Part shown: positions 10,523 to 50,839 of the stretch, in pieces | How positions within the stretch are numbered: position 1 is the first letter of the stretch | How the letters are laid out: each line of letters opens with the position of its first letter | NCBI RefSeq assembly: GCF_030450125.1 | Contig: NZ_CP123923.1 | Span: 4,526,001 to 4,590,000 of the forward strand | DNA: 64,000 bases | Direction: 5' to 3' | DNA from: Streptomyces sp. WP-1 | Lineage (GTDB): Bacteria; Actinomycetota; Actinomycetes; Streptomycetales; Streptomycetaceae | Position numbers and translations under genes: made by a program | The notes under the pieces: model-generated | What the model was told of the DNA's origin: nothing | Databases searched by the model: none | The model's input: only the letters and a program-made list of their open reading frames with translations

Positions 10523-10537
10523 CTGACGGTGCGTCAG
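10523..10537. promoter_or_regulatory. CTGAC-N5-GTCAG operator, perfect copy
   Basis: CTGACGGTGCGTCAG lies 19 bp upstream of the acyl-CoA synthetase start. A second copy lies 16 bp to the right, so this divergent promoter carries one site per gene. Confidence 0.8.
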
Positions 10538-10553
10538 GTATGTGGCATGCTAA

Positions 10554-10568
10554 CTGACGCTCCATCAG
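10554..10568. promoter_or_regulatory. CTGAC-N5-GTCAG operator, one mismatch
   Basis: CTGACGCTCCATCAG differs from the palindrome at one base of the right arm. It lies 27 bp upstream of the amidohydrolase ATG at 10596. Confidence 0.7.
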
Positions 10569-10595
10569 ATGAGTCCGGTCCGGCGGAGGGGAACC

Positions 10596-11792
10596 ATGGC
10601 GATCGAACTGCCCCGCATCATCAGCGTCGACGACCACGTGATCGAGCCCGCCCACCTCTTCGAGACCTGGCTGCCGGCGAAGTACCGGGAGCGGGGACCG
10701 CGGCCGCTCACCGCCGGGATCGGTGAACTCGCCTACGTGGGCGGGAAGTACCAGATCAGCATGGACCCGGAGGGGACCCCGACGGACTGGTGGATCTACG
10801 AGGACCTGAAGTTCCCGTACAAGCGCAACATCGCCGCCGTCGGCTTCGACCGCGACGAGATGACGCTGGAGGGGATCACCCGGGAGCAGATGCGGCGGGG
10901 GTGCTGGGACCCCAGGGCGCGGCTGGCGGACATGGACCTCAACCATGTCGAGGGGAGTCTGTGCTTCCCCACCTTTCCCCGCTTCTGCGGGCAGACCTTC
11001 GCCGAGGCGCACGACAAGGAAGTCGCCCTCGCCTGTGTGCGCGCCTACAACGACTGGATGGTGGAGGAGTGGTGCGGCGACAGCGGCGGCCGGCTCATCC
11101 CGCTGTGCCTGATCCCGTTGTGGGACGTGGGGCTGGCCGTCGAGGAGATACGGCGGAACGCGGCGCGCGGGGTGCGGGCCGTCACCTTCTCGGAGATCCC
11201 GACGCACCTCGGGCTGCCGTCCATCCACACCGGCTACTGGGACCCGTTCTTCGCCGTCTGCGAGGACACCGGCACGGTCGTCAACATGCACATCGGCAGC
11301 AGCTCCCAGATGCCCGCCGCCTCCCCGGACGCCCCGCCCGCCGTCCAGGCGTCCCTCAGCTTCAACAACGCGATGGCCTCGATGATGGACTACCTCTTCA
11401 GCGGGGTCCTGGTGCGGTTCCCGAGGCTCAAACTCGCGTACTCCGAGGGGCAGATGGGGTGGGTGCCGTACGCCCTGGAGCGCGCCGACGACGTGTGGGC
11501 CGAGCACCGGGCCTGGGGCGGGGTGCGGGATCTGGTGCCCGAGCCCCCGTCGACGTACTACTACCGCCAGATCTACTGCTGCTTCTTCCGCGACAAGCAC
11601 GGTGTCGCCTCGCTCGACGTCGTCGGCCGTGACAACGCCACCTTCGAGACCGACTACCCGCACGTCGACTCCACCTTCCCGCACACCGAGGAGATCGCCC
11701 TCGACCATGTGCGGGGCCTGGACGAGGAGACCGTGTACAAGCTGATGCGCGGCAACGCCATCCGCATGCTCGGGCTCGACCTGGACCGGTGA
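10596..11792 (+). CDS. Amidohydrolase family protein (PF04909 type)
   Basis: A 398-residue metal-dependent TIM-barrel hydrolase or decarboxylase of the amidohydrolase-2/ACMSD superfamily. The N-terminal strand IISVDDHVIEPAHLFE carries the first metal-site His. MHIGSSSQMP (near residue 232) and ETDYPHVDSTFPHT (near residue 352) carry the later His and Asp ligands. ATG 10596 follows a GGCGGAGGGG ribosome site. Its stop overlaps the start of the acyl-CoA dehydrogenase, so these genes form an operon. A close paralogue is at 47852, sharing blocks such as CFPTFPRFCGQTF and RAYNDWMVEEWCG. I infer action on a CoA-activated or free acid intermediate; the reaction is not known. Confidence 0.88.
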   Translation: MAIELPRIISVDDHVIEPAHLFETWLPAKYRERGPRPLTAGIGELAYVGGKYQISMDPEGTPTDWWIYEDLKFPYKRNIAAVGFDRDEMTLEGITREQMRRGCWDPRARLADMDLNHVEGSLCFPTFPRFCGQTFAEAHDKEVALACVRAYNDWMVEEWCGDSGGRLIPLCLIPLWDVGLAVEEIRRNAARGVRAVTFSEIPTHLGLPSIHTGYWDPFFAVCEDTGTVVNMHIGSSSQMPAASPDAPPAVQASLSFNNAMASMMDYLFSGVLVRFPRLKLAYSEGQMGWVPYALERADDVWAEHRAWGGVRDLVPEPPSTYYYRQIYCCFFRDKHGVASLDVVGRDNATFETDYPHVDSTFPHTEEIALDHVRGLDEETVYKLMRGNAIRMLGLDLDR

Positions 11793-12925
11793 TGGACCTC
11801 TGCGACACCCCGGAGGAGGCGGAGTTCCGGGCACGGCTGCGGGAGTGGCTCCATGAGGTGCTGCCCGGGCTGCCACCGAAGCCGGACCCCGCCGACTGGC
11901 CGGGGCGGCGGGCCTACGACCTCGGCTGGCAGCGGACGCTGTACGACGCCGGGTACGCCGATGTCCACCGGAACGCCTCCCCGGCGCTGCGGATGATCTT
12001 CCTGGAGGAGTCCGAGAAGGCGGGCGCGCCCTATGTGGGGGCGAACTTCGTCGGGCTGCTGCACGCGGGGCCGACCATCGCCGCCGAGGGCACCGACGCC
12101 CAGCGGGCGCGCTGGCTGCCGCCGATCCTGCGCGGTGAGGAGGTGTGGTGCCAGGGGTTCAGCGAGCCGGACGCCGGCTCCGACCTCGCGGCACTGCGCA
12201 CCCGGGCCCGCCGGGACGGCGACGACTACGTGGTCACCGGCGGCAAGATCTGGACCTCGCACGCGGAGGTCGCCGACTGGTGCGAACTCCTCGTCCGCAC
12301 CGACCCGGACGCGCCCCGCCACCACGGCATCACCTGGCTCGCGATGCCGATGGACGCCGAGGGGGTCACCGTACGGCCGCTGCGCACGCTCGCCGGGTCC
12401 GCCGAGTTCGCCGAGGTGTTCCTGGACGAGGTGCGGGTGCCGGCCGCCAACCGGGTCGGCGCGGAGAACGACGGCTGGCGGGTCACCATGGTCACCCTGT
12501 CCTTCGAACGCGGCACCGCCTTCGTGGGCGAGGTCGTCGCCTGCCGCCGCACCCTTCGCCAACTGGCGTGCGGGGCACGGGAGAACGGCCGCTGGGACGA
12601 CCCCGCGCTACGGCGCCGGCTCGGCCGCCTCGACGCCGAGTTCCGCGCGCTGTGGCGGCTGACCCAGTGGAACGTCAGCGCGGCGATGGCCGGCGGGGGC
12701 GTGCCGGGGGTCGGCGGGTCCGTCTTCAAGCTCCGGTACTCGGCCGCCCGTCAGGAGTTGTACGACACCGCCGCGGACGTCCTCGGCCCGGACGCCCTCG
12801 ACCTCGACCGGCCGTGGGTGCTGGACCGGCTGTCCTCGCTGTCGTACACGATCGCGGCCGGCACCTCGCAGATCCAGCGCAACATCGTGGCCGAGCGGAT
12901 GCTGGGGCTGCCGAAGGGGAGATGA
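11792..12925 (+). CDS. Acyl-CoA dehydrogenase, alpha-type partner
   Basis: A 377-residue flavin-dependent acyl-CoA dehydrogenase. Visible family motifs are EEVWCQGFSEPDAGSDLAAL (residues about 112-131), GGKIWTSHAEVADWCELLVRTD and the C-terminal TIAAGTSQIQRNIVAERMLG that binds FAD in this subfamily. The start (ATG 11792, or GTG 11789) overlaps the amidohydrolase stop, and its own stop overlaps the next dehydrogenase as ATGA. The second gene encodes the complementary GGMGFTWE-type subunit. Such adjacent unequal pairs form alpha2beta2 enzymes in actinobacterial sterol side-chain degradation (FadE26/27, FadE28/29), so I infer a heterotetramer. The substrate is unknown. Confidence 0.92.
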   Translation: MDLCDTPEEAEFRARLREWLHEVLPGLPPKPDPADWPGRRAYDLGWQRTLYDAGYADVHRNASPALRMIFLEESEKAGAPYVGANFVGLLHAGPTIAAEGTDAQRARWLPPILRGEEVWCQGFSEPDAGSDLAALRTRARRDGDDYVVTGGKIWTSHAEVADWCELLVRTDPDAPRHHGITWLAMPMDAEGVTVRPLRTLAGSAEFAEVFLDEVRVPAANRVGAENDGWRVTMVTLSFERGTAFVGEVVACRRTLRQLACGARENGRWDDPALRRRLGRLDAEFRALWRLTQWNVSAAMAGGGVPGVGGSVFKLRYSAARQELYDTAADVLGPDALDLDRPWVLDRLSSLSYTIAAGTSQIQRNIVAERMLGLPKGR

Positions 12926-13794
12926 GGGTGCGGTTCCAACTGAGCGAGGATCAGCGTGCGTTGAAGATGGGGGTACGGCGGCTGCTGGAGCGGCGGTTTC
13001 CCCGGGAGGCCCTGCGCGCGGCCGTCGACGCCCCCGGGCGGATCGACCGGGAGCTGTGGCGGGCGCTCGGGGAGGCCGGGTTCTTCGCGCTCACACTGCC
13101 GGAGGCGGAGGGCGGGGTGGGGCTCGGGCGCCCCGAGGCCGTGCTCGCCTTCGAGGAGGCCGGGCGGGCGCTGCTGCCGGGCCCGCTGGTGGCCACGCAT
13201 CTCGCGGCGGGTGCCGTACCGGGCGCGGCGGCGGGGGAGACGGTCGTGGCCGCCGTCGGCGGGGCCCTGGTGGAGTGGCTGGACGCGGCGGACGTCGTGC
13301 GGGGGGACACCTCCGGAGCCGTACCGCTGCGGTCGGTCGACCCGCTGACCCCCCTGCACCGGGTCCCGCGCCCGGCCGCCGCCGACCCTCTCGCCGTTCT
13401 CCTCACGGCGGCCGAACAACTGGGCGGTGCCGTACGGCTGAGCGAGCTGGCGGTGCAACACGCCCGGACCCGCCAGCAGTTCGGGCGGCCGATCGGGGCG
13501 TTCCAGGCCGTGCAGCATCTGTGCGCGGACCTCCTGGTGCGCGCCGAGACCGCGCGGGCCGCCGTCTACGCGGCCGCCGTCACCGGGGACCCGGGCGACA
13601 TCGCGGCCGCCCGGCTGCTCGCCGACGAGGCCGCCGTGCGCGGCGCCCGCGACTGCCTCCAGGTGCACGGCGGCATGGGCTTCACCTGGGAGGCGGACGT
13701 GCATCTGCATCTGAAGCGGGCGTGGGTGCGTGCGCAACGCAATGGGAGTGTCACGGATAGTGAGGAGCTGCTTGCCGCGGGGTTGGTCTCCTGA
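12922..13794 (+). CDS. Acyl-CoA dehydrogenase, short beta-type partner
   Basis: A 290-residue member of the acyl-CoA dehydrogenase family, about 90 residues shorter than a full enzyme. The middle beta-domain is reduced: it runs from LPEAEGGVGLGRPEAVLAFEEAG to the C-terminal helices with little between. The C-terminal motifs HARTRQQFGRPIGAFQAVQH (near residue 183) and CLQVHGGMGFTWEADVHLH (near residue 246) are intact. It is translationally coupled (ATGA) to the full-length dehydrogenase before it. A shortened subunit next to a full-length one fits the heterotetrameric FadE pairs in which each chain supplies part of the FAD and active site. It ends the operon that starts at 10596. Confidence 0.9.
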   Translation: MRVRFQLSEDQRALKMGVRRLLERRFPREALRAAVDAPGRIDRELWRALGEAGFFALTLPEAEGGVGLGRPEAVLAFEEAGRALLPGPLVATHLAAGAVPGAAAGETVVAAVGGALVEWLDAADVVRGDTSGAVPLRSVDPLTPLHRVPRPAAADPLAVLLTAAEQLGGAVRLSELAVQHARTRQQFGRPIGAFQAVQHLCADLLVRAETARAAVYAAAVTGDPGDIAAARLLADEAAVRGARDCLQVHGGMGFTWEADVHLHLKRAWVRAQRNGSVTDSEELLAAGLVS

Positions 13795-15074: not shown

Positions 15075-16001
15075 TCAGAGGACCGCCACCGGTGCCACCG
15101 GCGAACCCGTCGCGCCGACGAACGGTTCGGGCATCGCCGACAGCAGGAACGCGTACCGCCCGCATTCTCCACAGGCTGTGGACAACTTCTCCAGGTTCCA
15201 GTTCTGGCCCTGGAGCATCCCCATCTCCACCAGGTGCAGCGCATGCACCGGCAGCCATAGATTGTCGATCTCGGGCGGAAAGATCTCAAATGTGAGCGTG
15301 TCGTTGGCGACGGCGGCGACATCGCGGGCGTGGAACCACTCCGGCGTACGGACCGAGAGCCCGGGGGACGGGTGGCCGTACCCGTGCCGGTCCCCGCCGA
15401 GATACACCCGCACCTGGCCGGTGCGCACCAGCACGATGTCGCCGGCCCGCACCCGCACCCCGCCGAACTCCTCCGCCCGCTCCAGATCCTCCGGTGTGAC
15501 CGCGTGTCCCCCGGCCAGCCGCTCCACGCCCAGCGCCGCCGCCACGTCCAGCAGCACCCCGCGCGAGACGACCGGCCGCGCCGTGTCGATCCCGGAGAAC
15601 TCGGCGCCGCCGTGCGCGGTCACCGTGGCCGCCGGGCGGCCGTTGTAGAGCAGCCCGCCGTGCGAGACATGCGGCAGCGCGTCCCAGTGCGTGCCCGCCT
15701 GGAGGCCCAGGGTCACCACATCGTCGCTGCACGCCACCGTGCCGGGCCCGAACAACTCCTGGTTGAGCTGCGTCATCGCGTGCAGCGGATCGACCCGGCC
15801 CGGGATCACGCCCGTCTGCACCCCGTCGTGGGTGAGGGGCAGCGCGAGCGGGATACGACGGCCCGTGCGCACCTCCGCGACGGCGCCCCGCACCACCTCG
15901 TCGGTGATCAGGTTGAGCGTGCCGATCTCGTCCGCCGCGCCCCAGCGCCCCCAGTTGTTCACCCGCCCGGCGATCTCGTGGAACTCCTGCGGCAGTGTCA
16001 T
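15075..16001 (-). CDS. Cyclase family / kynurenine formamidase-like metal hydrolase
   Basis: A 308-residue protein of the PF04199 cyclase/formamidase family. It opens with a helix and WGRWGAADEIGTLNLIT. The metal-binding signature is VTLGLQAGTHWDALPHVSHG (residues about 95-114), with the H-x-D-x3-H ligands. The C-terminal EFSGIDTARPVVSRGVLLDV and IVLVRTGQVRVYLGG segments are typical. GGAGG lies upstream of ATG 16001. It is divergent from an SDR gene, with a regulon palindrome between them, so I place it in the catabolic pathway. Family members hydrolyse C-N or lactone-type bonds in aromatic or alicyclic substrates; the substrate here is unknown. Confidence 0.87.
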   Translation of the reverse strand: MTLPQEFHEIAGRVNNWGRWGAADEIGTLNLITDEVVRGAVAEVRTGRRIPLALPLTHDGVQTGVIPGRVDPLHAMTQLNQELFGPGTVACSDDVVTLGLQAGTHWDALPHVSHGGLLYNGRPAATVTAHGGAEFSGIDTARPVVSRGVLLDVAAALGVERLAGGHAVTPEDLERAEEFGGVRVRAGDIVLVRTGQVRVYLGGDRHGYGHPSPGLSVRTPEWFHARDVAAVANDTLTFEIFPPEIDNLWLPVHALHLVEMGMLQGQNWNLEKLSTACGECGRYAFLLSAMPEPFVGATGSPVAPVAVL

Positions 16002-16050: not shown

Positions 16051-16065
16051 CTAACGGTCCGTCAG
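16051..16065. promoter_or_regulatory. CTGAC-N5-GTCAG operator, one mismatch
   Basis: CTAACGGTCCGTCAG, with one changed base in the left arm, lies 49 bp from the cyclase start and 21 bp from the SDR start. It could control both divergent genes. Confidence 0.7.
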
Positions 16066-16086: not shown

Positions 16087-17004
16087 ATGGGGAACTTCTT
16101 GGCAGGCAGGGTCATCGCCGTCACGGGCGCGGGGCGGGGCATCGGACGGGCGGTCGCGCTGGCGGCGGCGGGCGAGGGGGCGCGGGTCGTCGTCAACGAC
16201 TACGGCGTCGCGACGGACGGCACCGCGCCGAGCAGCGAGGTCGCCGCCGCCGTCGTGAAAGAGATCGAGGCGGCGGGCGGGGAGGCGGTCGCGGTCGCCG
16301 ACGACATCTCCACGATGGCGGGCGGACAGCGGGTCGTGGACACGGCGGTGGGCGCGTTCGGACGGCTCGACGGGGTGGTGTGCGTCGCCGGGATCCTGCG
16401 CGAGCGGATGCTGTTCAACATGACCGAGCAGGAGTGGGACCCGGTCGTCGCCACCCATCTCAAGGGCACGTTCACCGTCTTCCGGGCGGCAGCGGCGGTG
16501 ATGCGGCGGCAGCGGTCCGGGACGCTGATCGGGTTCACCAGCGGGAACCATCAGGGCTCCGTGTCCCAGGCGAACTACAGCGCGGCCAAGGGCGGGATCA
16601 TCTCGCTGGTGCGCAGCGCGGCGCTGGGGCTGCACAAGTACGGGGTGACGGCGAACGCGGTGGCGCCGGTGGCGCGGACGCGGATGTCGGCGGACGTGCC
16701 CATGGAGCTGGCCGGGATGGGGTCGGCGGAGGATGTGGCGGCGCTGGTGGTGTACCTGCTCTCGGACCGGGCGGCGCGGGAGGGGATCACCGGGCAGGTG
16801 TACTCGGTGGCGGGGGCGAAGATCGCGGTGTGGGCCCAGCCGCGTGAGCTGCGCTCGGCGTATGCCGAGGGTGGGTCGTGGACGCCGGAGCGGATAGCGG
16901 AGTTCTTGCCGGGGGCGGTGGGGGTGGATCCGATGCCGATGCTGTCCCGGCTTTCGGAGATGGAGGAGGCGGCGCGGTCGGGGGCTCGGCCGAACGCCCA
17001 GTAG
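16087..17004 (+). CDS. SDR oxidoreductase, 17-beta-HSD type 4-like
   Basis: A 305-residue short-chain dehydrogenase. The NAD-binding TGAGRGIGRAVAL is at residues about 13-25, VVNDYGV follows the second strand, and the catalytic Tyr/Lys lie in SQANYSAAKGGIISLVRSAA. Residues 255-305 form an extension past the usual SDR core (WTPERIAEFLPGAVGVDPMP...), as in the SDR part of multifunctional enzyme 2 and actinobacterial Hsd4-type proteins, which oxidise 3-hydroxyacyl-CoA esters. That fits a beta-oxidation role. It leads a rightward set with the dehydrogenase at 17117 and the ADH at 18259, under the palindrome at 16051. Confidence 0.9.
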   Translation: MGNFLAGRVIAVTGAGRGIGRAVALAAAGEGARVVVNDYGVATDGTAPSSEVAAAVVKEIEAAGGEAVAVADDISTMAGGQRVVDTAVGAFGRLDGVVCVAGILRERMLFNMTEQEWDPVVATHLKGTFTVFRAAAAVMRRQRSGTLIGFTSGNHQGSVSQANYSAAKGGIISLVRSAALGLHKYGVTANAVAPVARTRMSADVPMELAGMGSAEDVAALVVYLLSDRAAREGITGQVYSVAGAKIAVWAQPRELRSAYAEGGSWTPERIAEFLPGAVGVDPMPMLSRLSEMEEAARSGARPNAQ

Positions 17005-17116: not shown

Positions 17117-18259
17117 ATGGATTTCGGGTTCAGCGACGAGGACGAAGGCTTTCGAGGCGAGGTGAGGGCGTGGCTCGCGGCTCACGCCGGTCAGGAGGTC
17201 GACCGGAGGGATTGGGAACGGGTCCTCGGTAAGGACGGTTGGATCGGGCTGGGTTGGGCGGAGGCCGGGTTCGGGAACCGGACCGGGTCGCTCACCGAGC
17301 AGGTCGTCTGGGCCGAGGAGTACGCCCGTTCCGGGGCGCCGGCCAGGGCGGGGCACATCGGGGAGAAGCTGTTCGCGCCGACGCTGATCAGGTACGGGAC
17401 CGAGGAGCAGAAGCGGCGCTTTTTGCCGGCCGTCGCCGCCGGTGCGGAACTCTGGTGCCAGGGGTACAGCGAACCGGGTGCCGGGTCCGATCTCGCGGCC
17501 GTGCGGACCAGGGCCGTACGCGAGGGCGGGCGGCACCGGGTCACCGGGCAGAAGATCTGGACCTCCCTCGCCCACGAGGCCGACTGGTGCTTCGTGCTGG
17601 CGCGGACCGAGGAGGGGTCGCGGCGGCACCACGGGCTCAGCTTCCTGCTCGTACCGATGGACCAGCCGGGCCGTATCGAGGTACGGCCGATCCGGCAGCT
17701 GACCGGGACCAGCGATTTCAACGAGGTCTTCTTCGACGGCGCGAGGGCGGAACACGTCGTCGGCGCGGAGGGCGACGGGTGGCGCGTGGCGATGAGCCTG
17801 CTCGGCTTCGAGCGGGGCGTGTCCACGCTGGCGCAGCAGATCGGGTTCGGGGAGGAGTTGCGGAGGGTCGTGGAGACGGCCGTACGCGGCGGGGCCGTGC
17901 GTGACCCGCTCCTGCGGGACCGGCTCGTGCGGCAGTGGGCCGAGCTGCGCACCATGCGCTGGCACGCCCTGCGCACCCTGGGCGGCGCGGACGAGCCCGC
18001 CGCGCCCAGCGTCGCCAAGCTGCTGTGGGCCGACTGGCATCAGAGGCTCGGCGAGCTGGCCGTACAGGTGCGGGGCGCGGAGGCGGGGGTGGGGCCCCGG
18101 GAGTGGTCGGCCGAGGAGCCGTACCGGATCGACGCGGACCAGCAGTTGTTCCTCTTCTCCCGGGCCGACACCATCTACGGCGGCTCGGACCAGATCCAGC
18201 GCACGATCATCGCCGAGCGCGCGCTCGGTCTGCCCAGGGAGCCGAAGGGGGTCCGGTGA
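17117..18259 (+). CDS. Acyl-CoA dehydrogenase, alpha-type
   Basis: A 380-residue FAD-dependent dehydrogenase of the same subtype as that at 11792: LPAVAAGAELWCQGYSEPGAG, VTGQKIWTSLAHEADWCFVLAR, LTGTSDFNEVFFDGARAEHV and the C-terminal SDQIQRTIIAERALGLPREP. ATG 17117 is chosen over 17102 because GGAGGCGGGGAG lies just upstream of it. Its stop overlaps the ADH start. No short partner is adjacent; the GGIGFTWE-type dehydrogenase at 31960 is under the same palindrome and is a possible partner. It probably introduces an alpha-beta double bond into a CoA thioester. Confidence 0.91.
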   Translation: MDFGFSDEDEGFRGEVRAWLAAHAGQEVDRRDWERVLGKDGWIGLGWAEAGFGNRTGSLTEQVVWAEEYARSGAPARAGHIGEKLFAPTLIRYGTEEQKRRFLPAVAAGAELWCQGYSEPGAGSDLAAVRTRAVREGGRHRVTGQKIWTSLAHEADWCFVLARTEEGSRRHHGLSFLLVPMDQPGRIEVRPIRQLTGTSDFNEVFFDGARAEHVVGAEGDGWRVAMSLLGFERGVSTLAQQIGFGEELRRVVETAVRGGAVRDPLLRDRLVRQWAELRTMRWHALRTLGGADEPAAPSVAKLLWADWHQRLGELAVQVRGAEAGVGPREWSAEEPYRIDADQQLFLFSRADTIYGGSDQIQRTIIAERALGLPREPKGVR

Positions 18260-19311
18260 TGCGGGGTGTGGTGTTCGACGGCCGGCGGGTACGGGTGGTG
18301 GACGATCTGGCGGTGCGCGCGCCGGGTCCTGGCGAGGTGCTGGTCGCGATCGCGGCGGCGGGGCTGTGCCACAGCGATCTGTCGGTGGTGGACGGCACCA
18401 TCCCGTTCCCGGTCCCGGTGGTGCTCGGGCACGAGGGCGCCGGAGTGGTGGCGGCGGTCGGCGCGGGCGTCACCCATGTCGTGCCCGGCGACCATGTGGC
18501 CCTGTCCACGCTCGCCAACTGCGGCACCTGCCCGGAGTGCGACCGGGGCCGCCCGACCATGTGCCGGGCGGCGACCGGGCGCCCGGAGCGGCCCTTCACC
18601 CTGGCGGGGGCGGAGCCCGTCCACCAGTTCGCCGCCAACTCCGCCTTCGCGGAACGCACCGTCGTCAAGGCCGTCCAGGCGGTCCGCGTCCCCGCTGACA
18701 TCCCCCTGGAGTCCGCCGCGCTGATCGGCTGCGGGGTGCTCACCGGGGTGGGCGCCGTACTGAACCGGGCCCGGGTGCGGTGCGGGGACAGCGTCGTCGT
18801 CATCGGCACCGGCGGCATCGGCCTGAACGTGCTCCAGGGGGCGCGGCTCGCGGGCGCCTCCCGGATCGTGGCCGTGGACGCCAACCCGGCGAAGGCGGGG
18901 ATGGCCCGGGAGTTCGGCGCGACCGACTTCCTCACCTCGGCGGACGCGGTGCGGGAGCTGCTGCCGACGGGGGCCGACCATGTCTTCGAGTGCGTCGGCC
19001 GGGTGGAGCTGATCCGGCAGGCCGTCGGCCTCCTCGACCGGCACGGCCAGGCGATCCTCCTCGGCGTGCCCCCGGCCGCCGCCGAGGCGTCCTTCCGCGT
19101 CTCCGCCCTCTACCTGGACAAGTCGATCCTGGGCTGCCGCTACGGCTCCGCCCGCCCCCAGCGCGACATCGCCCTGTACGCCGACCTGTACCGCCGAGGG
19201 CGCCTGCTGCTCGACGAGTTGGTGTCGGCGGTGTACCCGGTGGAGGACTTCGAGAAGGCGCGGGCGGACGCGGAGGCGGGGCGGGTGGCGCGGGCCGTGC
19301 TCACGTTCTGA
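18259..19311 (+). CDS. Zinc-dependent alcohol dehydrogenase
   Basis: A 350-residue medium-chain dehydrogenase. The catalytic-zinc region is AAGLCHSDLSVVDG with Cys near residue 37. VVLGHEGAGVVAAVG follows near residue 60, and the structural-zinc loop CGTCPECDRGRPTMC near residue 91 has all four Cys. The nucleotide fold is SVVVIGTGGIGLNVLQGA near residue 177. This is the class of NAD- or NDMA-dependent aliphatic/aryl alcohol dehydrogenases. The ATG overlaps the dehydrogenase stop, so it is the last gene of the 16087 operon. I infer oxidation of an alcohol intermediate to an aldehyde, with the aldehyde dehydrogenase at 53736 as a possible follow-on step. Confidence 0.93.
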   Translation: MRGVVFDGRRVRVVDDLAVRAPGPGEVLVAIAAAGLCHSDLSVVDGTIPFPVPVVLGHEGAGVVAAVGAGVTHVVPGDHVALSTLANCGTCPECDRGRPTMCRAATGRPERPFTLAGAEPVHQFAANSAFAERTVVKAVQAVRVPADIPLESAALIGCGVLTGVGAVLNRARVRCGDSVVVIGTGGIGLNVLQGARLAGASRIVAVDANPAKAGMAREFGATDFLTSADAVRELLPTGADHVFECVGRVELIRQAVGLLDRHGQAILLGVPPAAAEASFRVSALYLDKSILGCRYGSARPQRDIALYADLYRRGRLLLDELVSAVYPVEDFEKARADAEAGRVARAVLTF

Positions 19312-19317: not shown

Positions 19318-20370
19318 TCACCCGGATTCGGTGAGCGCCCGGAAGGTCCGCCGGTAGGCCGTCGGCGTCACCCCCAGCGCCTGCTGCAGGTGCTGCCGCA
19401 TCGACTGCGCCGTGCCGAACCCCGACGTCTGCGCCACCTGGTCCATGGCGAGGTCGGTGGTCTCCAGCAACTGCCGGGCCCGCTCGACCCGTTGCCGGCT
19501 GAGCCACTGCCCGGGGCTGACGCCGACCTCCTCGCGGAAGCGGCGGGTGAAGGTGCGTACCGACATGGCCTCCTGCTCGGCCAGGTCGCGCAGCTGGATC
19601 GGCTCGTGCAGCCGGGCCAGCGCCCAGGCGCGGGCGCCGGTGGTGGTGGCGAGCTGGGGGTCGGGCACCGGGCGCTCTATGTACTGGGCCTGGCCGCCGT
19701 CGCGGTGCGGGGGTACGACCATCCGCCGGGCCACGTCGTTGGCGACGGCCGTGCCGAAGTCGCGGCGGACCATGTGCAGGCACAGGTCGATCCCGGCGGC
19801 CACCCCGGCCGAGGTCAGCACGTCCCCGTCGTCGATGAACAGCACGTCCGCGTCCACCCGGATCCGCGGGAACAGCCGCTGGAAGTGGTCCGCCTCGGCC
19901 CAGTGGGTGGTCGCCGGGCGGCCGTCGAGATATCCGGCGGCGGCGAGGACGTACACCCCGGTGCAGATGGAGGCGAGCCGGGTGCCGGGCCGGATCCGGG
20001 CGAGCGCGGCGGCCAGCTCCTTGGTCAGCCGGCCCTCCTCGAAGACCGGGCCCAGCTCGTACGACGCCGGGACGATCACCGTGTCGGCGCGGGCCAGCGC
20101 CTCCGGGCCGTGCGGCACGTGGACCGCGAAGTCGGCGTCCGTCTCCACCGGGCCCGGGGGCCGTACCGAGCAGGTGAAGACCTCGTACAGCGGCCGGCCC
20201 CGGGCGTCCCTGGGGCGGCCGAAGACGCGGTGCGGGATGCCCAGCTCGAAGGGGAGGAGCCCGTCGAGGGCGAGGACGGCGACCCGGTGCGGACGGGACT
20301 CCTCGGCGGCGTCCATGGCCCGATCGACATGCGGGGCCCGATCCACGCCAACGGCCCGGTCGACACTCAT
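19318..20370 (-). CDS. GlxA-type AraC-family transcriptional regulator
   Basis: A 350-residue regulator. An N-terminal DJ-1/PfpI-like domain (VAVLALDGLLPFELGIPHRVF, then the nucleophile-elbow-like LASICTGVYVLAAAGYLDGR near residue 135) is followed by a C-terminal AraC double helix-turn-helix (LHEPIQLRDLAEQEAMSVRTFTRRF, then MDQVAQTSGFGTAQSMRQHL, residues about 250-340). This is the GlxA/FtrA layout. The gene ends 7 bp from the ADH stop, convergent, and is divergent from an MFS transporter with only 53 bp between starts. It therefore most likely controls that transporter. None of the regulon palindromes lies at this promoter. Confidence 0.92.
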   Translation of the reverse strand: MSVDRAVGVDRAPHVDRAMDAAEESRPHRVAVLALDGLLPFELGIPHRVFGRPRDARGRPLYEVFTCSVRPPGPVETDADFAVHVPHGPEALARADTVIVPASYELGPVFEEGRLTKELAAALARIRPGTRLASICTGVYVLAAAGYLDGRPATTHWAEADHFQRLFPRIRVDADVLFIDDGDVLTSAGVAAGIDLCLHMVRRDFGTAVANDVARRMVVPPHRDGGQAQYIERPVPDPQLATTTGARAWALARLHEPIQLRDLAEQEAMSVRTFTRRFREEVGVSPGQWLSRQRVERARQLLETTDLAMDQVAQTSGFGTAQSMRQHLQQALGVTPTAYRRTFRALTESG

Positions 20371-23497: not shown

Positions 23498-23512
23498 CTG
23501 ACAGGGCGTCAG
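23498..23512. promoter_or_regulatory. CTGAC-N5-GTCAG operator, perfect copy
   Basis: CTGACAGGGCGTCAG lies 16 bp upstream of the flavin reductase start and 36 bp past the end of the enoyl-CoA hydratase gene on the same strand, so it probably governs the reductase alone. Confidence 0.8.
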
Positions 23513-26553: not shown

Positions 26554-26599
26554 CGGTCCGCCCCGCTCCTGTGAGACAGCATGAGACAGCACGTGTGAA

Positions 26600-40134: not shown

Positions 40135-40541
40135 GCGAGCACCCACTGCGGCAGCCCCTCGTGGAAGACCGCCCGCACCCGGGCGCCGATCCGGATGCGC
40201 CCCGGATCGAGGGAGCCGAGCGGCGCGCCCGCCCCGGTGACCAGATTGCCGACCAGCCGGATCCGGGGGGCGTCCGCCAGCTCCACCACGACCACGTTGT
40301 ACGGCGCCTGTTCCGCGTACGCGGGCAGCAGCGGCGGGTGCGGGACGACGTACGACCACACGCGCCCGCGCCCCGACATCGGCTGCCACCCGCTCGCGAA
40401 GGACCGGCAGTGCGGGCAGCAGGGCCGGGGCGGGAAGCGGGGCTCGCCGCACCCCGAGCAGGTCTGTACGCGCAGTTCGCCGCGGGCCGCGTACTCCCAG
40501 AAGGGCGCGCCGTCGGCGTCGGTGACCGGCTTCAGCATCAT
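40131..40541 (-). CDS. DUF35 / Zn-ribbon OB-fold protein
   Basis: A 136-residue zinc-ribbon/OB-fold protein: RVQTCSGCGEPRFPPRPCCPHC (CxxC...CxxC, residues about 26-45), then RVWSYVVPHPPLLPAYAEQAPYNVVVVELADAPRIRLVGNL. The same family as the product at 28125. It sits between a thiolase-like gene (3-bp gap) and the hydratase (GTGA overlap). That order, thiolase then DUF35, is the strongest evidence that the two gene products form a complex, as Ltp/DUF35 pairs do in sterol side-chain degradation. No catalytic residue of its own is expected. Confidence 0.92.
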   Translation of the reverse strand: MMLKPVTDADGAPFWEYAARGELRVQTCSGCGEPRFPPRPCCPHCRSFASGWQPMSGRGRVWSYVVPHPPLLPAYAEQAPYNVVVVELADAPRIRLVGNLVTGAGAPLGSLDPGRIRIGARVRAVFHEGLPQWVLA

Positions 40542-40544: not shown

Positions 40545-41699
40545 TCAACTCCTCAGCAGCAGCGCGGAGGTGGGGACGCTCTCGCCCGCGGTGACCAGGC
40601 AGGTGGCGGCGCCGGGGACCTGCGCGGTGCTGGTGCCGCGCAGCTGCCGCACCCCTTCGGTGATGAGGTTGAAGCCATGCACATAGCCCTCGGAGAGCCC
40701 GCCGCCCCCGGTGTTGAGGGGCAGCCGCCCGCCGGTCTCCAGGGCGCCCTGCTCGGTGAAGGCGCCGCCCTCCCCTCGTCCGCAGAAGCCGTAGCCCTCC
40801 AGGGAGAGCGGGACGAGGATGCTGAACCCGTCGTAGATCTGGGCCACGTCCACGTCGTCGGGGGTGAGGTCGGCGTGCTTCCACAGCTGCCGGGCGGTGG
40901 TCCAGGAGGGGCCGGTGAGGGGGTCGTCGTTCCAGTAGTTGACCATGCCGTGGTGCTGGGCGGGCAGGCCCTGCGCGGCGGCGTGGACGTACACGGGCCT
41001 GCGACGGCAGTCCCGGGCCCGTTCCCGCCCGACGACGACACACGCCGACGCCCCGTCGGTCTCCAGGCAGTTGTCGAAGAGGCAGAGGGGTTCGCTGATC
41101 CAGCGGGAGGTCATGTACATCTCGCGGGTGAGCGGGCGGTCGTACATCACGGCGGCCGGGTTCTGGTTGGCCCGGTTGCGACAGGCGAGGGCGACGTTGA
41201 AGAGATGGTCGCGGGTGGCGCCGTACTCGTGCATGTACCGCCGGGCCAGCATGGCCGTCTCGTCCACGGGCCGCAGCACCCCGAACGGCCGGGTCCACTG
41301 GGCCGGGGTGGGGAGTTGGCCGGTGGCGCCGGTCCACGGCCGGGGTCCGCTGCCGCGCTTGCGGGACCGCCAGGCGACGCCCACGGTGGCCTGCCCGGCG
41401 GCGATGGCGGTGGCGAGGTGCGCGACGGTGGCGCACGAACCCCCGCCGCCGAAACCGACCTTGCCGAAGTAGGTGAGATCCCCGAACCCCACTGCCTTCG
41501 CCAGCTCCACCTCGTCCGTCTCCTCCATCGTGTAGGAGGCCACGGCGTCGACCTCGCCGGGCGCGATCCCGGCGTCGTCCAGCGCGGCGAGCACGGCCCG
41601 GCAGGCAAGGGTCTTCTCGTCCTCCGGGAGGTGCTTGGCGAACGCGGTCTGCCCGATCCCGACGATGGCCGTGGCGTCCTTGAGCCCCGTCCCTGCCAT
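40545..41699 (-). CDS. Thiolase-like lipid-transfer protein with DUF35 partner
   Basis: A 384-residue thiolase-superfamily protein: GLKDATAIVGIGQTAFAKHL at the N-terminus, a helix with GFGGGGSCATVAHLATAIAAG that keeps a Cys near the nucleophile position (unlike the product at 30695), and C-terminal DVDVAQIYDGFSILVPLSLE, GFCGRGEGGAFTEQ and LPLNTGGGGLSEGYVHGFNLI. It begins a leftward operon with DUF35 and enoyl-CoA hydratase. Divergent from an acyl-CoA synthetase, with two perfect palindromes between them. Reaction: thiolysis or retro-aldol cleavage of an acyl-CoA, inferred only. Confidence 0.9.
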   Translation of the reverse strand: MAGTGLKDATAIVGIGQTAFAKHLPEDEKTLACRAVLAALDDAGIAPGEVDAVASYTMEETDEVELAKAVGFGDLTYFGKVGFGGGGSCATVAHLATAIAAGQATVGVAWRSRKRGSGPRPWTGATGQLPTPAQWTRPFGVLRPVDETAMLARRYMHEYGATRDHLFNVALACRNRANQNPAAVMYDRPLTREMYMTSRWISEPLCLFDNCLETDGASACVVVGRERARDCRRRPVYVHAAAQGLPAQHHGMVNYWNDDPLTGPSWTTARQLWKHADLTPDDVDVAQIYDGFSILVPLSLEGYGFCGRGEGGAFTEQGALETGGRLPLNTGGGGLSEGYVHGFNLITEGVRQLRGTSTAQVPGAATCLVTAGESVPTSALLLRS

Positions 41700-41748: not shown

Positions 41749-41763
41749 CTGACGGTTAGTCAG
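41749..41763. promoter_or_regulatory. CTGAC-N5-GTCAG operator, second perfect copy
   Basis: CTGACGGTTAGTCAG, 32 bp upstream of the acyl-CoA synthetase start at 41796. Confidence 0.85.
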
Positions 41764-41795: not shown

Positions 41796-43406
41796 ATGGG
41801 TGAGTGGCACACCATCCCGGCCCTGGTGCGGTGGTCGGCCGCGCGGTTCGCGGACCACGAGGCGGTGGTGGAGGGCCGTACCCGCATCAGCTACGCCGAG
41901 TTGGGCGCCCGGATCGAACGCGCCGCTGCCGCGTGCCTGGCGAGCGGGGTGGCGACGGGCGACCGGGTGGCCGTGTGGGCCCCCAACTCCCTGGACTGGA
42001 TCGTCGCGGCGCTGGGCGCGGTGTCGGCGGGCGCGGTCCTGGTGCCGCTGAACACCCGCTTCAAGGGCGGCGAGGCGGTGGACGTGCTGCGCGGCAGCGG
42101 GGCGCGGCTGCTGTTCGTGACGGGGCCGTTCCTGGGCACGTCGTACGTGGCGGCGCTGCGCCGCGCGGCGGGTTCCGGCGCCGGGCCGGGGCCGTTGCCG
42201 GGGGTGCCGTCGCTGCGGGAGGTGGTGGTGCTGTCGGGGGAGGCGCCGCCGGAGTTCGGGACGTGGCGGGAGTTCCTGGCGGCGGGGGCGGCCGTCGGGG
42301 CGGCCGAAGTCCGCGCCCGTGCGGCCTCGTTGACCGGGGAGGCGGTGTCGGACATCGTCTTCACCTCGGGTACGACGGGCCGTCCCAAGGGTGCGGTGAT
42401 CACGCACGGCCAGACGCTGCGGGCGTACGAGACGTGGGCGGACCTCGCGGGGTTGCGGTCGGCGGACCGCTACCTGATCATCAACCCCTTCTTCCACACG
42501 TTCGGTTACAAGGCCGGGGTGCTCGCGTGCCTGATGCGCGGGGCGACGATGATCCCGCAGCCGGTGTTCGACGTGGACACGACGCTGGCCCATATGACGG
42601 CGGAACGCGTCTCCGTCCTCCCCGGACCGCCCACCCTGCACCAGACCCTCCTGGACCACCCCGCCCGCGCCGCGCACGACCTGTCCGCCCTGCGCCTGGT
42701 GGTGACCGGCGCGGCGGTGATCCCGCTGCGGCTGGTGGAACGCCTGCGCACGGAGCTGGGCGTCGGTACGGTCCTCACCGCGTACGGCCTCTCGGAGGCG
42801 TCCGGGGTGGTCACGATGTGCCGGCGCGGCGACGATCCGTCGGTGATCGCGGCGACGTCGGGACGGGCGATCCCGGGGGTGGAGGTGCGGGTGGTGTCAC
42901 CGGCCGGTACGACGGTCCCCGCCGGATCGCCGGGCGAGATCTGGGTCCGGGGCTTCAACGTCATGCGGGGGTACGACGCGGACGGGCCGGCCACGGCGGA
43001 GGCGATCACGCCGGAGGGGTGGCTGCGTACGGGCGACGTCGGGGTGCTGGACGGGGCGGGCAATCTGCGGGTGACGGACCGGCTGAAGGACATGTTCACC
43101 GTCGGCGGCTTCAACGCCTACCCCGCCGAGATAGAGCGCCTGCTCTCCACCCACCCCGAGGTCGCCGACGCCGCGGTGGTGGGCATCCCCCACCCCCGCC
43201 TCGGCGAAGTCCCCAAGGCCTACATCGTCCGCCGCCCCACCTCCCACCTCACCGCGAACGCCCTGATCACCTGGTCCCGCCACGCGATGGCGAACTACAA
43301 GGTGCCGAGGGAGGTGGAATTCCTCCAGGAACTCCCGAGAAACGCGAACGGCAAGGTGCTGAAGGGGGCACTGCGGGGGCGGGGGAGGGGCGACTCGTTC
43401 GGGTGA
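41796..43406 (+). CDS. AMP-dependent acyl-CoA synthetase, FadD3-like
   Basis: A 536-residue ANL ligase. Core motifs are DIVFTSGTTGRPKGAVITHG (P-loop, near residue 187), NPFFHTFGYKAGVLACLMRG, TAYGLSEASGVVTMCRRGDD, GWLRTGDVGVLDGAGNLRVTDRLKDMFTVGGFNAYPAEIE and the catalytic Lys of LPRNANGKVLKGALRG near the C-terminus. The overall text resembles actinobacterial FadD3/long-chain fatty acid-CoA ligases that activate ring- or side-chain-derived acids. It is divergent from the thiolase operon under two perfect palindromes. A broken toxin gene end follows it directly. Confidence 0.93.
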   Translation: MGEWHTIPALVRWSAARFADHEAVVEGRTRISYAELGARIERAAAACLASGVATGDRVAVWAPNSLDWIVAALGAVSAGAVLVPLNTRFKGGEAVDVLRGSGARLLFVTGPFLGTSYVAALRRAAGSGAGPGPLPGVPSLREVVVLSGEAPPEFGTWREFLAAGAAVGAAEVRARAASLTGEAVSDIVFTSGTTGRPKGAVITHGQTLRAYETWADLAGLRSADRYLIINPFFHTFGYKAGVLACLMRGATMIPQPVFDVDTTLAHMTAERVSVLPGPPTLHQTLLDHPARAAHDLSALRLVVTGAAVIPLRLVERLRTELGVGTVLTAYGLSEASGVVTMCRRGDDPSVIAATSGRAIPGVEVRVVSPAGTTVPAGSPGEIWVRGFNVMRGYDADGPATAEAITPEGWLRTGDVGVLDGAGNLRVTDRLKDMFTVGGFNAYPAEIERLLSTHPEVADAAVVGIPHPRLGEVPKAYIVRRPTSHLTANALITWSRHAMANYKVPREVEFLQELPRNANGKVLKGALRGRGRGDSFG

Positions 43407-47815: not shown

Positions 47816-47830
47816 CTGACGGTCCGTCAG
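47816..47830. promoter_or_regulatory. CTGAC-N5-GTCAG operator, perfect copy
   Basis: CTGACGGTCCGTCAG, 21 bp upstream of the amidohydrolase ATG at 47852. The afsR start lies 153 bp away in the other direction, so afsR is probably not governed by it. Confidence 0.85.
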
Positions 47831-47851
47831 ATCAGCGCTACGGTGGGCGCC

Positions 47852-49087
47852 ATGGACACCCACGCGAGCACGTTTCCGCTGATCATCTCCGTGGACGACC
47901 ACACCGTGGAGCCCGCGGGCGTCTGGCTGGACCGGCTGCCGGCGCGCCACCGGGACACCGCCCCCCGTATCGTGCGCGCCCCGCTCAAGGAGATGAGCTT
48001 CCTCGGCGGGCGCTTCCGGCCGGTCATGGGCGAGCCCGGCGACGCGGGCCCGCTCGGCGACTGGTGGGTCTACGAGGACCTGCGCCGCCCCCTGACCCGC
48101 CTCGACACCGCCGTCGGCGTCGACCGCGACGAGGTCAGGCTGGAGGTCATCACGTACGAGCAGATGCGCCCGGGTTCGTACGACGTCCCCGCGCGCCTCG
48201 CCGACATGGACCTCAACCATGTGCAGTCGGCGCTGTGTTTCCCCACCTTCCCCCGCTTCTGCGGCCAGACCTTCACGGAGGCCCGCGACCGCGAGCTGGC
48301 CCTGCTCTGCGTGCGCGCCTACAACGACTGGATGGTGGAGGAGTGGTGCGGGCCGCAGGCGCACGGCCGGCTGATACCGCTCACCCTCATCCCCCTGTGG
48401 GACGCGGAGCTGGCCGCCGCCGAGGTGCGGCGGAACGCGGCGCGCGGGGTGCGGGCCGTCGCCTTCTCCGAGATCCCCCCGCACCTCGGCCTGCCCTCCG
48501 TGCACACCGACGCCTGGGACCCCTTCCTCGCCGCCTGCGACGAGACCGGCACGGTCGTGGCCATGCACATCGGCTCCAGCAGCCGGATGCCGTCCACCTC
48601 CGCCGACGCCCCGCCCGCCGTCGGCTCCGTCATCACCTTCGCCAACTGCTGCTTCTCCATGGTGGACTGGCTGCTGAGCGGCAAGTTCGAACGCTTTTCG
48701 AACCTCAGGGTGATGTACGCCGAGGGCCAGATCGGCTGGATCCCGTACATCCTGGAGCGCGCCGACGTGGTGTGGGAGGAGAACCGCGGCTGGGGCGGGG
48801 TCGCCGGCAAGGTCACCCGGCCGCCGTCCGAGCTGTTCGCCGAGCATGTGTACGGCTGCTTCTTCGACGACGCCTTCGGCCTGCGCAACCTCGACTCCAT
48901 CGGCCTCGGCAACGTCCTGTACGAGACCGACTACCCGCACTCCGACTCCACCTGGCCGAAGTCCCGCGAGGTCGGCGAGGCCCAGATGGGGCACCTCCCG
49001 GCGGAGGTGGTGGCACGGATCGTGCGGGGCAACGCGATCGAGCTGCTGGAGCTGACCCCGGACGGCCTGTGGCAGGGGCCCGCGTGA
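47852..49087 (+). CDS. Amidohydrolase family protein (PF04909 type), paralogue
   Basis: A 411-residue metal-dependent TIM-barrel hydrolase, paralogous to the product at 10596. It shares LIISVDDHTVEPAGVW, ARLADMDLNHVQSALCFPTFPRFCGQTF, RAYNDWMVEEWCG, MHIGSSSRMPSTSADAPPA and ETDYPHSDSTWPKS in the same order. The first His (DDH), the middle His (MHIG) and a late Asp/His are conserved, consistent with a metal site. ATG 47852 lies 21 bp after a perfect palindrome. Its stop overlaps the LLM start (GTGA), and the SDR follows, making a three-gene operon. The two amidohydrolases probably act on different intermediates of one pathway, or on different substrates. Confidence 0.88.
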   Translation: MDTHASTFPLIISVDDHTVEPAGVWLDRLPARHRDTAPRIVRAPLKEMSFLGGRFRPVMGEPGDAGPLGDWWVYEDLRRPLTRLDTAVGVDRDEVRLEVITYEQMRPGSYDVPARLADMDLNHVQSALCFPTFPRFCGQTFTEARDRELALLCVRAYNDWMVEEWCGPQAHGRLIPLTLIPLWDAELAAAEVRRNAARGVRAVAFSEIPPHLGLPSVHTDAWDPFLAACDETGTVVAMHIGSSSRMPSTSADAPPAVGSVITFANCCFSMVDWLLSGKFERFSNLRVMYAEGQIGWIPYILERADVVWEENRGWGGVAGKVTRPPSELFAEHVYGCFFDDAFGLRNLDSIGLGNVLYETDYPHSDSTWPKSREVGEAQMGHLPAEVVARIVRGNAIELLELTPDGLWQGPA

Positions 49088-50010
49088 GTCTCGCCTACGG
49101 CATCCAGCTGCCCGTGCAGTCGCAGAGCACCCGGTACGCGCAGGAGTGGGAGGCCGGGGCCGGGACCGCCGACCTGGTGGCGGTCGCCCGGGCCGCCGAC
49201 CGCGCCGGATTCGCCTATCTGGCCTGCTGCGACCATGTGGCGATCCCGCGCCGCCTCGCCCCGGCCATGGGCACGGTCTGGTACGACCCCGTCGCCACCC
49301 TCGCCCACCTCGCCGCCGTCACCGCGCGCGTCCGGCTGCTCAGCCATGTCGCCGTGGTGGGCCTGCGCCACCCCCTGCTCACCGCCAAGCAGTACGCCAC
49401 CCTCGACCACCTCAGCGGCGGCCGGCTGATCCTCGGGGTGGGCGCCGGACACGTACGCGAGGAATTCGAGGCCCTGGGCGCCGAGTTCGAGCGGCGGGGC
49501 GCGGTCCTGGACGAGACGATCGACGCGCTGCGGGCCGCGCTCGGACCCGAGGAGTACCCCGAACACCACGGGAAACGGTACGACTTCGCCGACCTCGGCC
49601 AGCTTCCCCGCCCGGCCCGGCGGCACGTCCCCCTCTGGGTCGGCGGCTCGTCCCCCGCCGCCGTACGCCGGGCCGCGCTGAAGGCGGACGGCTGGCTGCC
49701 GCAGGGGGATCCGCGCGGACGGCTGCCCGGACAGCTCGCCCGGATCCGCAGGCTGCGCGAAGCGGCCGCCCTGGACGGGGACTTCACCGTCGGCGCGATC
49801 ACCGAGGCGCTGTACGTGGGCGAGCCGGGCTGGGAGGTCGGCCCGCGCACCCTCACCGGGGCACCCGAGGAGATCGCCGGGTCGCTGCGGGCGTACCCGG
49901 CGATGGGCGTCGACCAGATCCAGGTGCGGTTCCGCAGCCGCAGCCGCGCCGAACTCATCGACCAGATGGACGCGTTCGGGGCCACCGTCGCGCCGCTGCT
50001 CACCGGCTGA
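49084..50010 (+). CDS. LLM-class (luciferase-like) oxidoreductase, F420-type
   Basis: A 308-residue TIM-barrel enzyme of the bacterial luciferase-like superfamily: LVAVARAADRAGFAYLACCDHVAIPRRL (residues about 30-57), TARVRLLSHVAVVGLRHPLLTAKQYATLDHLSGGRLILGVGAGHVREEFEALG and PLWVGGSSPAAVRRAALKADGWLP. This is the TIGR03619-type group that often uses coenzyme F420. GTG 49084 overlaps the amidohydrolase stop. The cofactor cannot be proven from sequence; the fbiC gene nearby (57407) makes F420 available. Reaction on the pathway: dehydrogenation or monooxygenation of an intermediate, inferred. Confidence 0.87.
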   Translation: MSLAYGIQLPVQSQSTRYAQEWEAGAGTADLVAVARAADRAGFAYLACCDHVAIPRRLAPAMGTVWYDPVATLAHLAAVTARVRLLSHVAVVGLRHPLLTAKQYATLDHLSGGRLILGVGAGHVREEFEALGAEFERRGAVLDETIDALRAALGPEEYPEHHGKRYDFADLGQLPRPARRHVPLWVGGSSPAAVRRAALKADGWLPQGDPRGRLPGQLARIRRLREAAALDGDFTVGAITEALYVGEPGWEVGPRTLTGAPEEIAGSLRAYPAMGVDQIQVRFRSRSRAELIDQMDAFGATVAPLLTG

Positions 50011-50021
50011 CGAGGAGCGTC

Positions 50022-50789
50022 ATGGGCAAACTGGACGGGCGGGTCGTCGTCGTCACCGGCGCGGCGCGCGGACAGGGCGAGCAGGAGGCGCGGCTCTTCC
50101 GGGCGGAGGGCGCGCGGGTGGTCGTCACGGATGTGTTGGACGACCGGGGGGAGGCGCTGGCCGAGGAGATCGGGGCGCGCTACGTCCACCTGGACGTCGG
50201 CTCCGAGGAGGGCTGGCGGGCGGCCGTCGCGGCGGCCAAGGAGGCGTACGGGCGGATCGACGGGCTGGTCAACAACGCGGGCGTCCTGCGCTTCAACGCC
50301 CTCGTGGACACCCCGCTGGAGGAGTTCACGCAGGTGGTGCGGGTCAACCAGGTCGGCTGCTTCCTGGGCGTCAAGACGGTGGCACCGGAGCTTGCGGAGG
50401 GCGGCACGATCGTCAACACCGCGTCCTGCACGGCGCTCACCGGCATGCCGGCCGTGGGCGCGTACGCGGCGACCAAGCACGCCGTCCTGGGGCTGACCCG
50501 AGTGGCCGCGCTGGAGCTGGCCGCCCGGCGGATACGGGTCAACGCCATCTGTCCGGGCGCCATCGACACCCCCATGTCCAACCCGGCCCGCCTGGATACG
50601 GACGCCGACCCGGAGGAGCCGGACCGGGCGCTGGACGAGCTGTACCGCAAGCTCGTGCCGCTCGGCCGGGTGGGCAGGCCCGAGGAGGTGGCCCGCCTCG
50701 CGCTCTTCCTCACCTCGGACGACTCCTCGTACATCACCGGACAGCCCTTCGTGATCGACGGCTGCTGGCTGGCGGGCGTCGGCTATTGA
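50022..50789 (+). CDS. SDR-family oxidoreductase (3-alpha/20-beta-HSD-like)
   Basis: A 255-residue classical SDR. NAD-binding VVVVTGAARGQGEQEARLF at residues 8-26, with the unusual Gln in RGQGEQEARLF, which is typical of 3-alpha/20-beta-hydroxysteroid-type SDRs; NNAG as LVNNAGVLRF; catalytic SCTALTGMPAVGAYAATKHAVLG; then GRVGRPEEVARLALFLTSDDSSYITGQPFVIDG. GAGG precedes ATG 50022. It closes the amidohydrolase-LLM-SDR operon. The similarity to hydroxysteroid dehydrogenases agrees with a polycyclic or branched substrate but does not prove it. Confidence 0.92.
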   Translation: MGKLDGRVVVVTGAARGQGEQEARLFRAEGARVVVTDVLDDRGEALAEEIGARYVHLDVGSEEGWRAAVAAAKEAYGRIDGLVNNAGVLRFNALVDTPLEEFTQVVRVNQVGCFLGVKTVAPELAEGGTIVNTASCTALTGMPAVGAYAATKHAVLGLTRVAALELAARRIRVNAICPGAIDTPMSNPARLDTDADPEEPDRALDELYRKLVPLGRVGRPEEVARLALFLTSDDSSYITGQPFVIDGCWLAGVGY

Positions 50790-50824
50790 CGGTCGCGGTG
50801 GCCGGTGCGACAGTCGGCCTCGAT

Positions 50825-50839
50825 CTGACGGAGCGTCAG
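50825..50839. promoter_or_regulatory. CTGAC-N5-GTCAG operator, perfect copy
   Basis: CTGACGGAGCGTCAG, 35 bp upstream of the GTG at 50875 and 35 bp past the SDR stop. It starts a separate rightward operon. Confidence 0.85.

Follow-up and report, generated by a model that had tools for sequence, protein, structure and literature searches.

The present analysis concerns a stretch of 64,000 nucleotides of Streptomyces sp. WP-1 (GCF_030450125.1, contig NZ_CP123923.1, positions 4,526,001 to 4,590,000), called here the window, and a palindrome that recurs in it beside genes of acyl-CoA metabolism, together with the TetR-family regulator encoded at 35014-35661. The core of the palindrome is CTGAC-N5-GTCAG, often extended to CTGACG-N3-CGTCAG, which is named here the strict motif. 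An initial annotation of the window had described a 40-kb regulon marked by these palindromes and attributed it to one TetR-like repressor.

Palindromic sites in the window

A pattern search found eight exact and four one-mismatch sites, twelve in total. Eleven of them, the eight exact and three with one mismatch, had been placed correctly by the initial annotation, but the twelfth (35655-35669), at the start of the TetR gene, had been overlooked. Conservation was read in ten other species of the same genus, in 80 kb around the TetR gene of each, by scanning from -250 to +30 at the starts of orthologous genes; orthologues were defined as tblastn matches that covered more than 60% of the protein at 50% identity or higher. 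The sites, numbered as candidate operators, are the following.

10523-10537, exact: operator 1, divergent promoter of 8974-10503 (minus) and 10596-11792 (plus); kept in 6/6 and 8/8 orthologues
10554-10568, one mismatch: operator 1b, 31 bp from operator 1
16051-16065, one mismatch: operator 2, divergent promoter of 15075-16001 (minus) and 16087-17004 (plus); one-mismatch site in 6/6 orthologues
23498-23512, exact: operator 3, before the flavin reductase gene 22885-23481 (minus); kept in 7/8
26600-26614, exact: operator 4, before the ADP-forming acyl-CoA ligase gene 24334-26466 (minus); kept in 8/8
28106-28120, exact: operator 5, between the flavin monooxygenase-like (FMO-like) gene 26791-27921 (minus) and the DUF35 gene 28134-28532 (plus); kept in 3/10 and 2/8
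31909-31923, one mismatch: operator 6, divergent promoter of the thiolase gene 30695-31864 (minus) and the acyl-CoA dehydrogenase gene 31960-33183 (plus); 8/8 for both, as a one-mismatch site
35655-35669, one mismatch, CTGACGGCATGACAG on the gene strand: proposed autoregulatory operator, overlapping the TetR start codon
41722-41736, exact: operator 7a, divergent promoter of the thiolase/DUF35/hydratase genes and the FadD3-family ligase gene; kept in 8/8 for both genes
41749-41763, exact: operator 7b, 27 bp from 7a
47816-47830, exact: operator 8, before the Amidohydro_2 gene 47843-49087 (plus); kept in 8/8
50825-50839, exact: operator 9, before the LLM gene 50875-51993 (plus); kept in 7/7

In 100 shuffles, matches with at most one mismatch averaged 2.55 and never exceeded 7, against 12 in the window. 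The whole genome of 7.62 Mb holds 35 exact copies against one for a reversed-pattern control and, when one mismatch is allowed, 309 against 126. Eight of the 35 exact copies fall in the window, where about 0.3 would be expected if they were evenly spread (35 x 64000/7618767).

All eight exact sites in the window are upstream of genes and none lies over a stop codon. The initial annotation had claimed a distance of about 50 bp or less from the gene start, and at 26600 and 28106 the choice of start codon decides: with the genes as called, these sites lie about 134 bp before 24334-26466 and about 185 bp before 26791-27921 (both minus strand), and longer open reading frames in the same frames (24334-26592 and 26791-28095) begin about 10 bp from them. 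The afsK, afsR, fbiC and Lrp-type genes of the window have no site with up to one mismatch between -250 and +30, in agreement with the initial annotation.

Comparison of orthologous promoters, which had been proposed as a check, found the palindrome kept. Among 117 upstream regions of orthologues of the 15 site-bearing genes of the window, 103 carry a site, exact (62) or with one mismatch, against 7 of 210 (3 exact) for orthologues of the site-less genes. The seven belong to 49084 (four), afsR (two of the ten species) and 11789 (one). The 117 regions are not independent, because ten of the genes are arranged as five divergent pairs, each with a shared site. Twelve control palindromes gave 0-9 of the 117 and 0-14 of the 210. 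In two species, G044 and G027, the 80 kb contain no orthologues of site-bearing genes except those of the TetR gene and 26791, and no exact site, yet the TetR gene and its own one-mismatch site are kept. G044, which lacks most of the cluster near the TetR gene, still has 31 copies of CTGACGN3CGTCAG in its genome.

The TetR-family regulator and its co-occurrence with the palindrome

The regulator proposed to bind the palindrome (35014-35661, minus strand) carries a PF00440 helix-turn-helix (HTH) domain (26.7 bits, cut-off 24) and a PF19352 TetR_C_38 domain (241.3 bits, cut-off 23.9). Its predicted structure is essentially all-helical (mean predicted local distance difference test score 87.7) and its domains are those of the TetR family; no NCBIfam TetR name scored above its cut-off for this protein. 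A protein search of its own genome returned one full-length match and five other weak matches of 21-26 bits. The helix GTSPATFYQYF is identical in nine of ten aligned TetR proteins, which share about 50% overall identity with that of the window, and one residue differs in the tenth.

Of 56 genus loci, 55 read CTGACGNCATGACAG at the TetR start, and the remaining one has a spacing that is off by one base. Part of this conservation could be due to coding constraint, since the site takes in bases of the start codon and of codon 2. A site at the regulator's own promoter, as seen here, is a common though not universal trait of TetR proteins, and autoregulation through the start-codon site is suggested. 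The ~50 bp before the TetR start (window 35661-35730) are near-identical in all the genus loci read, and this holds outside the operator as well. A -10-like TAAGCT six bases before the ATG suggests a leaderless transcript.

A match to the regulator was found in 101/101 genomes of the genus and 121/121 of the family (in G500 as three pieces). Every one of the 101 genus genomes has between 2 and 32 copies of the strict motif, against 0-3 of the reversed control, and 120 of the 121 family genomes contain the motif.

This ubiquity, the self-site and the co-occurrence in distant families make the 35014 TetR the best fit among the regulators of the cluster. The operators could instead belong to another regulator, such as the AraC-type protein 19318-20316, the Lrp/AsnC-type protein 34456-34908, the second TetR 21961-22677 or a trans-acting factor, the 35014 TetR being incidental. 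The comparison of regulators covered genes in the window, binding by the 35014 TetR is predicted from sequence, and the AraC-type gene has orthologues in eight of the ten species regions. Orthologues of the Lrp-type gene occur in three of ten regions and of the second TetR in none, and none of the three has an upstream site in the window, whereas the 35014 TetR has the motif at its own start and accompanies it in distant families. We consider ownership by another regulator improbable.

Beyond the genus, a class sample of 345 genomes was used (TetR threshold E<=1e-20; cross-family counts were read by eye from tables), with the strict motif in 176 and the TetR in 61. The association test omitted 33 same-genus genomes and the five genomes of family f13 (109-218 copies, TetR relative present), since including the latter would strengthen the association for an apparently wrong reason. 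With a threshold of at least six strict copies, which was set after the table had been seen, 11 of 23 TetR-positive genomes reach it against 1 of 284 TetR-negative genomes (Fisher p 3e-13, a value that overstates the independent evidence because the eleven come from two families, f14 and f18). Put the other way, 11 of the 12 genomes with at least six copies have the TetR. Families f14 and f18 are judged to correspond to Frankiales metagenome-assembled genomes and Frankia/Pseudofrankia-type genomes. In f14, seven TetR-positive genomes have 6-14 copies and the five without a TetR match have 0, 0, 0, 1 and 10.

The distant sites are also mostly promoter-side: upstream of genes lie 14/14 in G203, 8/8 examined (of 14) in G113, 9/9 in G292 and 6/7 examined (of 9) in G418. 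Genes beside them match targets in the window, namely Amidohydro_2 (65-72%), Amidohydro_3 (64-65%), aldehyde dehydrogenase (best 60-64%), SDR (65%), acyl-CoA dehydrogenase (58-61%), AMP ligase (51-56%) and LLM (49-56%), and many other genes there have weaker matches or none. All five loci of the Frankiales metagenome-assembled genomes have a site, exact or with one mismatch, no more than 60 bp from the aligned TetR start; among five Frankia-type loci, an exact copy precedes the TetR by 292 bp in one and by 375 bp in another. Six more distant TetR relatives (32-34% identity, mostly labelled Acidimicrobiia) have a one-mismatch site 115-118 bp upstream in two cases and exact copies within 10 kb in four, three of which are apparently close relatives.

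Genes beside the sites and reach of the proposed regulon

Genes of the window were called with a window-trained codon model and named by Pfam, ten proteins also by NCBIfam. The names below are from Pfam unless another source is given.

8974-10503, minus: AMP-binding acyl-CoA synthetase (no NCBIfam cut-off passed among the matches listed)
10596-11792, plus: Amidohydro_2 (PF04909) protein, scanned as the open reading frame 10569-11792; same unit as two acyl-CoA dehydrogenases
11789-12925, plus: acyl-CoA dehydrogenase with three domains; solved relatives Tcur3483 and 4x28
12928-13794, plus: short acyl-CoA dehydrogenase with no middle-domain match
15075-16001, minus: putative cyclase (PF04199)
16087-17004, plus: SDR
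22885-23481, minus: flavin reductase
23549-24337, minus: enoyl-CoA hydratase, same unit as the ligase at 24334
24334-26466, minus: ADP-forming acyl-CoA ligase (Pfam, NCBIfam)
26791-27921, minus: FMO-like protein
28134-28532, plus: DUF35/ChsH2-like OB-fold protein
30695-31864, minus: thiolase-like protein (Pfam, NCBIfam)
31960-33183, plus: acyl-CoA dehydrogenase, followed by an F420H2 quinone-reductase-like gene, 33180-33743
39361-40134, minus: enoyl-CoA hydratase
40131-40541, minus: DUF35/ChsH2-like protein
40545-41699, minus: thiolase-fold 'lipid-transfer protein' (Ltp; NCBIfam NF005892, 561.7 bits, cut-off 469); solved relative 6ok1
41796-43406, plus: FadD3-family acyl-CoA ligase (NCBIfam NF005801, 767 bits, cut-off 657)
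47843-49087, plus: Amidohydro_2 protein, closest solved chains DitZ and PtmU3; same unit as LLM and SDR genes
50875-51993, plus: LLM-class oxidoreductase, followed by Amidohydro_3 52009-53739 and aldehyde dehydrogenase 53736-55223

Sterol side-chain-type genes include FadD, EchA19, Ltp, ChsH2 and a heteromeric acyl-CoA dehydrogenase. The FadD, acyl-CoA dehydrogenase, hydratase, lipid-transfer protein and DUF35 gene types of the window presumably resemble these; we take the lipid-transfer protein 40545-41699 to be comparable to Ltp2, and 12928-13794 with the neighbouring dehydrogenase would resemble a heteromeric pair. The SDR gene 16087-17004 likely heads an operon with an acyl-CoA dehydrogenase gene (17117-18259) and a Zn-dependent alcohol dehydrogenase gene (18256-19311). 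The two Amidohydro_2 proteins (10596-11792 and 47843-49087) may act not as hydrolases but as dinuclear oxygenases like PtmU3, the structural matches coming from 47843-49087 alone; PtmU3 is counted among the PF04909 dinuclear oxygenases in PMC10811679.

The description as a 40-kb regulon captures the clustering of exact copies in the window but not the 27 that lie outside it. Six of these 27 are coding and five overlap a stop codon, so the genomic copies cannot all be operators. As to coding and promoter positions, the comparison proposed as a test, every exact site in the window lies upstream of a gene, although elsewhere in the genome there are these coding copies and some sites whose neighbours show no evident relation to the pathway (among them DUF2470, CobA-type, methyltransferase and glycosyl-hydrolase genes). 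Of the nine strict-motif copies outside the window, seven precede a gene by no more than 300 bp and two are coding. The regulon seems to extend past the 40 kb. Promoter-side sites are found before a MaoC-type/DUF35 protein gene with a lipid-transfer-protein gene downstream (L032), between DUF35 and NUDIX genes (L040), before an LLM gene and between ABC and MaoC genes (both L038), and before a nitronate-monooxygenase-like gene. At L043 a site lies between an acyl-CoA synthetase gene and an enoyl-CoA hydratase gene, with a lipid-transfer-protein gene nearby; this hydratase passes PRK07799 (406.7, cut-off 316). Lipid-transfer proteins above the cut-offs of PRK07937 and PRK07855 also lie near distant sites. 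The gene types at these sites outside the window may, by analogy, be said to resemble those of sterol side-chain catabolism.

Proposed regulation and its alternatives

We consider it very probable, from the sequence evidence, that the palindrome is the operator of TetR 35014-35661 and that this protein represses a dispersed acyl-CoA regulon resembling sterol side-chain catabolism. The earlier proposal of one TetR-like repressor for a dispersed pathway is thereby supported, with binding and the sign of control as its predicted parts. TetR dimers would bind ten promoter regions in the window, serving about 15 transcription units, most likely repressing them, and would also bind and repress more units elsewhere in the genome; the weaker site over the TetR start codon would limit the synthesis of the regulator itself. 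A CoA thioester or acid of the pathway would most likely release the protein. The genes under control would provide CoA activation, acyl-CoA dehydrogenation, hydration, cleavage by thiolase-fold/DUF35 proteins and oxidative steps, in a pathway that may resemble the catabolism of a polycyclic isoprenoid (sterol-side-chain-like) acid.

The same TetR could act through the same sites as an activator or a dual regulator. The sign of control is not readable from sequence, and TetR proteins can also activate, some being activators according to PMC12093943. Most sites lie near start codons, and that of the TetR gene over its own, positions that suit repression, and we regard activation or dual control as unlikely.

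Several observations weigh against the repressor-operator reading or against its sterol-like substrate. Binding of the palindrome by the TetR is a prediction from sequence, and the self-site, besides its overlap with coding bases, carries one mismatch throughout the genus loci read. The upstream regions compared within the genus include the shared sites of divergent pairs, and the site at 28106 is the least conserved (3/10 and 2/8 orthologues). Outside the genus and f13, the positives of the association test come from two families, and 12 of 23 TetR-positive genomes have 0-4 copies (for example none in G121 and G130); in the class sample the same-genus TetR-positive genomes G371, G247 and G328 have only 0, 1 and 1 strict copies. 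The f14 genome G244 has ten copies and no detected TetR, in an assembly 68% complete. In G111 (family f12) only two of three copies precede a gene, one of these at a distance of 685 bp, and in all five Frankia-type loci the aligned TetR start lacks any site, exact or with one mismatch, within 150 bp. As to the substrate, the best solved matches of the FadD3-family ligase 41796-43406 are a fatty-acyl-CoA synthase, a feruloyl-CoA synthetase and 4-coumarate ligases, and the L043 hydratase scores 367.9 bits on the EchA19 model, whose cut-off is 400. To these points are added the copies that lie elsewhere than at promoters in some genomes: 15 coding and 6 holding a stop codon among 23 examined of 218 in G181 (f13), 11 holding a stop codon and 2 coding among 18 of 127 in G505 (g139), and 6 holding a stop codon and 5 coding among 18 of 96 in G441 (g129).

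The palindrome therefore has one or more other uses, and the number of copies by itself was rejected as evidence of a regulon, the examined copies of G181, G505 and G441 being mostly coding or over stop codons. In G112 (f13) the two copies looked at, of 135, are both over stop codons; G443 (g131) has 77 copies. In G505, G441 and G181 the palindromes may form a 3' hairpin at gene ends. It could be proposed that the palindromes are in general RNA hairpins, terminators or attenuators, and not DNA operators: a stop codon inside the palindrome, as in G505 and G441, is what 3' hairpins would produce. In the window the exact sites are all upstream, none over a stop codon, many of them in divergent promoters and conserved, and the hairpin explanation is highly improbable there.

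With the TetR as repressor, the arrangement resembles that of KstR and KstR2, TetR-like repressors of dispersed steroid catabolic genes in mycobacteria, KstR2 being released by HIP-CoA (PMC6678751). The likeness lies in dispersed catabolic genes under a TetR-type regulator, repression being the predicted part here. The regulator itself is apparently a different protein, not evidently related to KstR or KstR2 by sequence: a PDB sequence search returned 21 sequences at E<=0.01, with EthR best and none named KstR, several being generically named. We also take the palindrome to differ from the KstR and KstR2 motifs.

By position, the TetR is probably the orthologue of Streptomyces coelicolor SCO4421, with which it shares the closeness to afsK. 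SCO4421 is a TetR gene beside afsK that is reported to be whiA-dependent and expressed in spore chains, with no deletion phenotype detected, and no targets of it are named in the accessible part of PMC3878966. Another Streptomyces TetR, Sco4385, sits with SCO4383/SCO4384 (PMC12093943) and is alike in lying beside genes for a CoA ligase and an enoyl-CoA hydratase; it differs in being a separate locus tag, and the word 'palindrome' is absent from the main text of that paper. Searches on the palindrome, SCO4421, nearby locus tags and regulon terms, with most subscription journals outside reach, returned no paper that we recognised as describing this operator.

A broader and tentative idea, which we hold to be possible but rather doubtful, is that the TetR-operator pair is an ancient switch for polycyclic isoprenoid acids, kept across Streptomycetaceae, Frankiales and perhaps Acidimicrobiia, doing a KstR-like job with another descent and tied to sporulation in Streptomyces. 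With such a tie the inducer could be a compound that the cell makes or recycles. The idea would also account for the retention of the TetR in genomes that lack the catabolic cluster.

A regulator present in 121/121 genomes of the family, with no target in the papers found, would thus gain predictions of its operator, its set of genes and the class of its inducer. The analysis would also add, for Streptomyces and relatives of Frankia, a sterol-side-chain-like catabolic regulon whose regulator is not evidently KstR.

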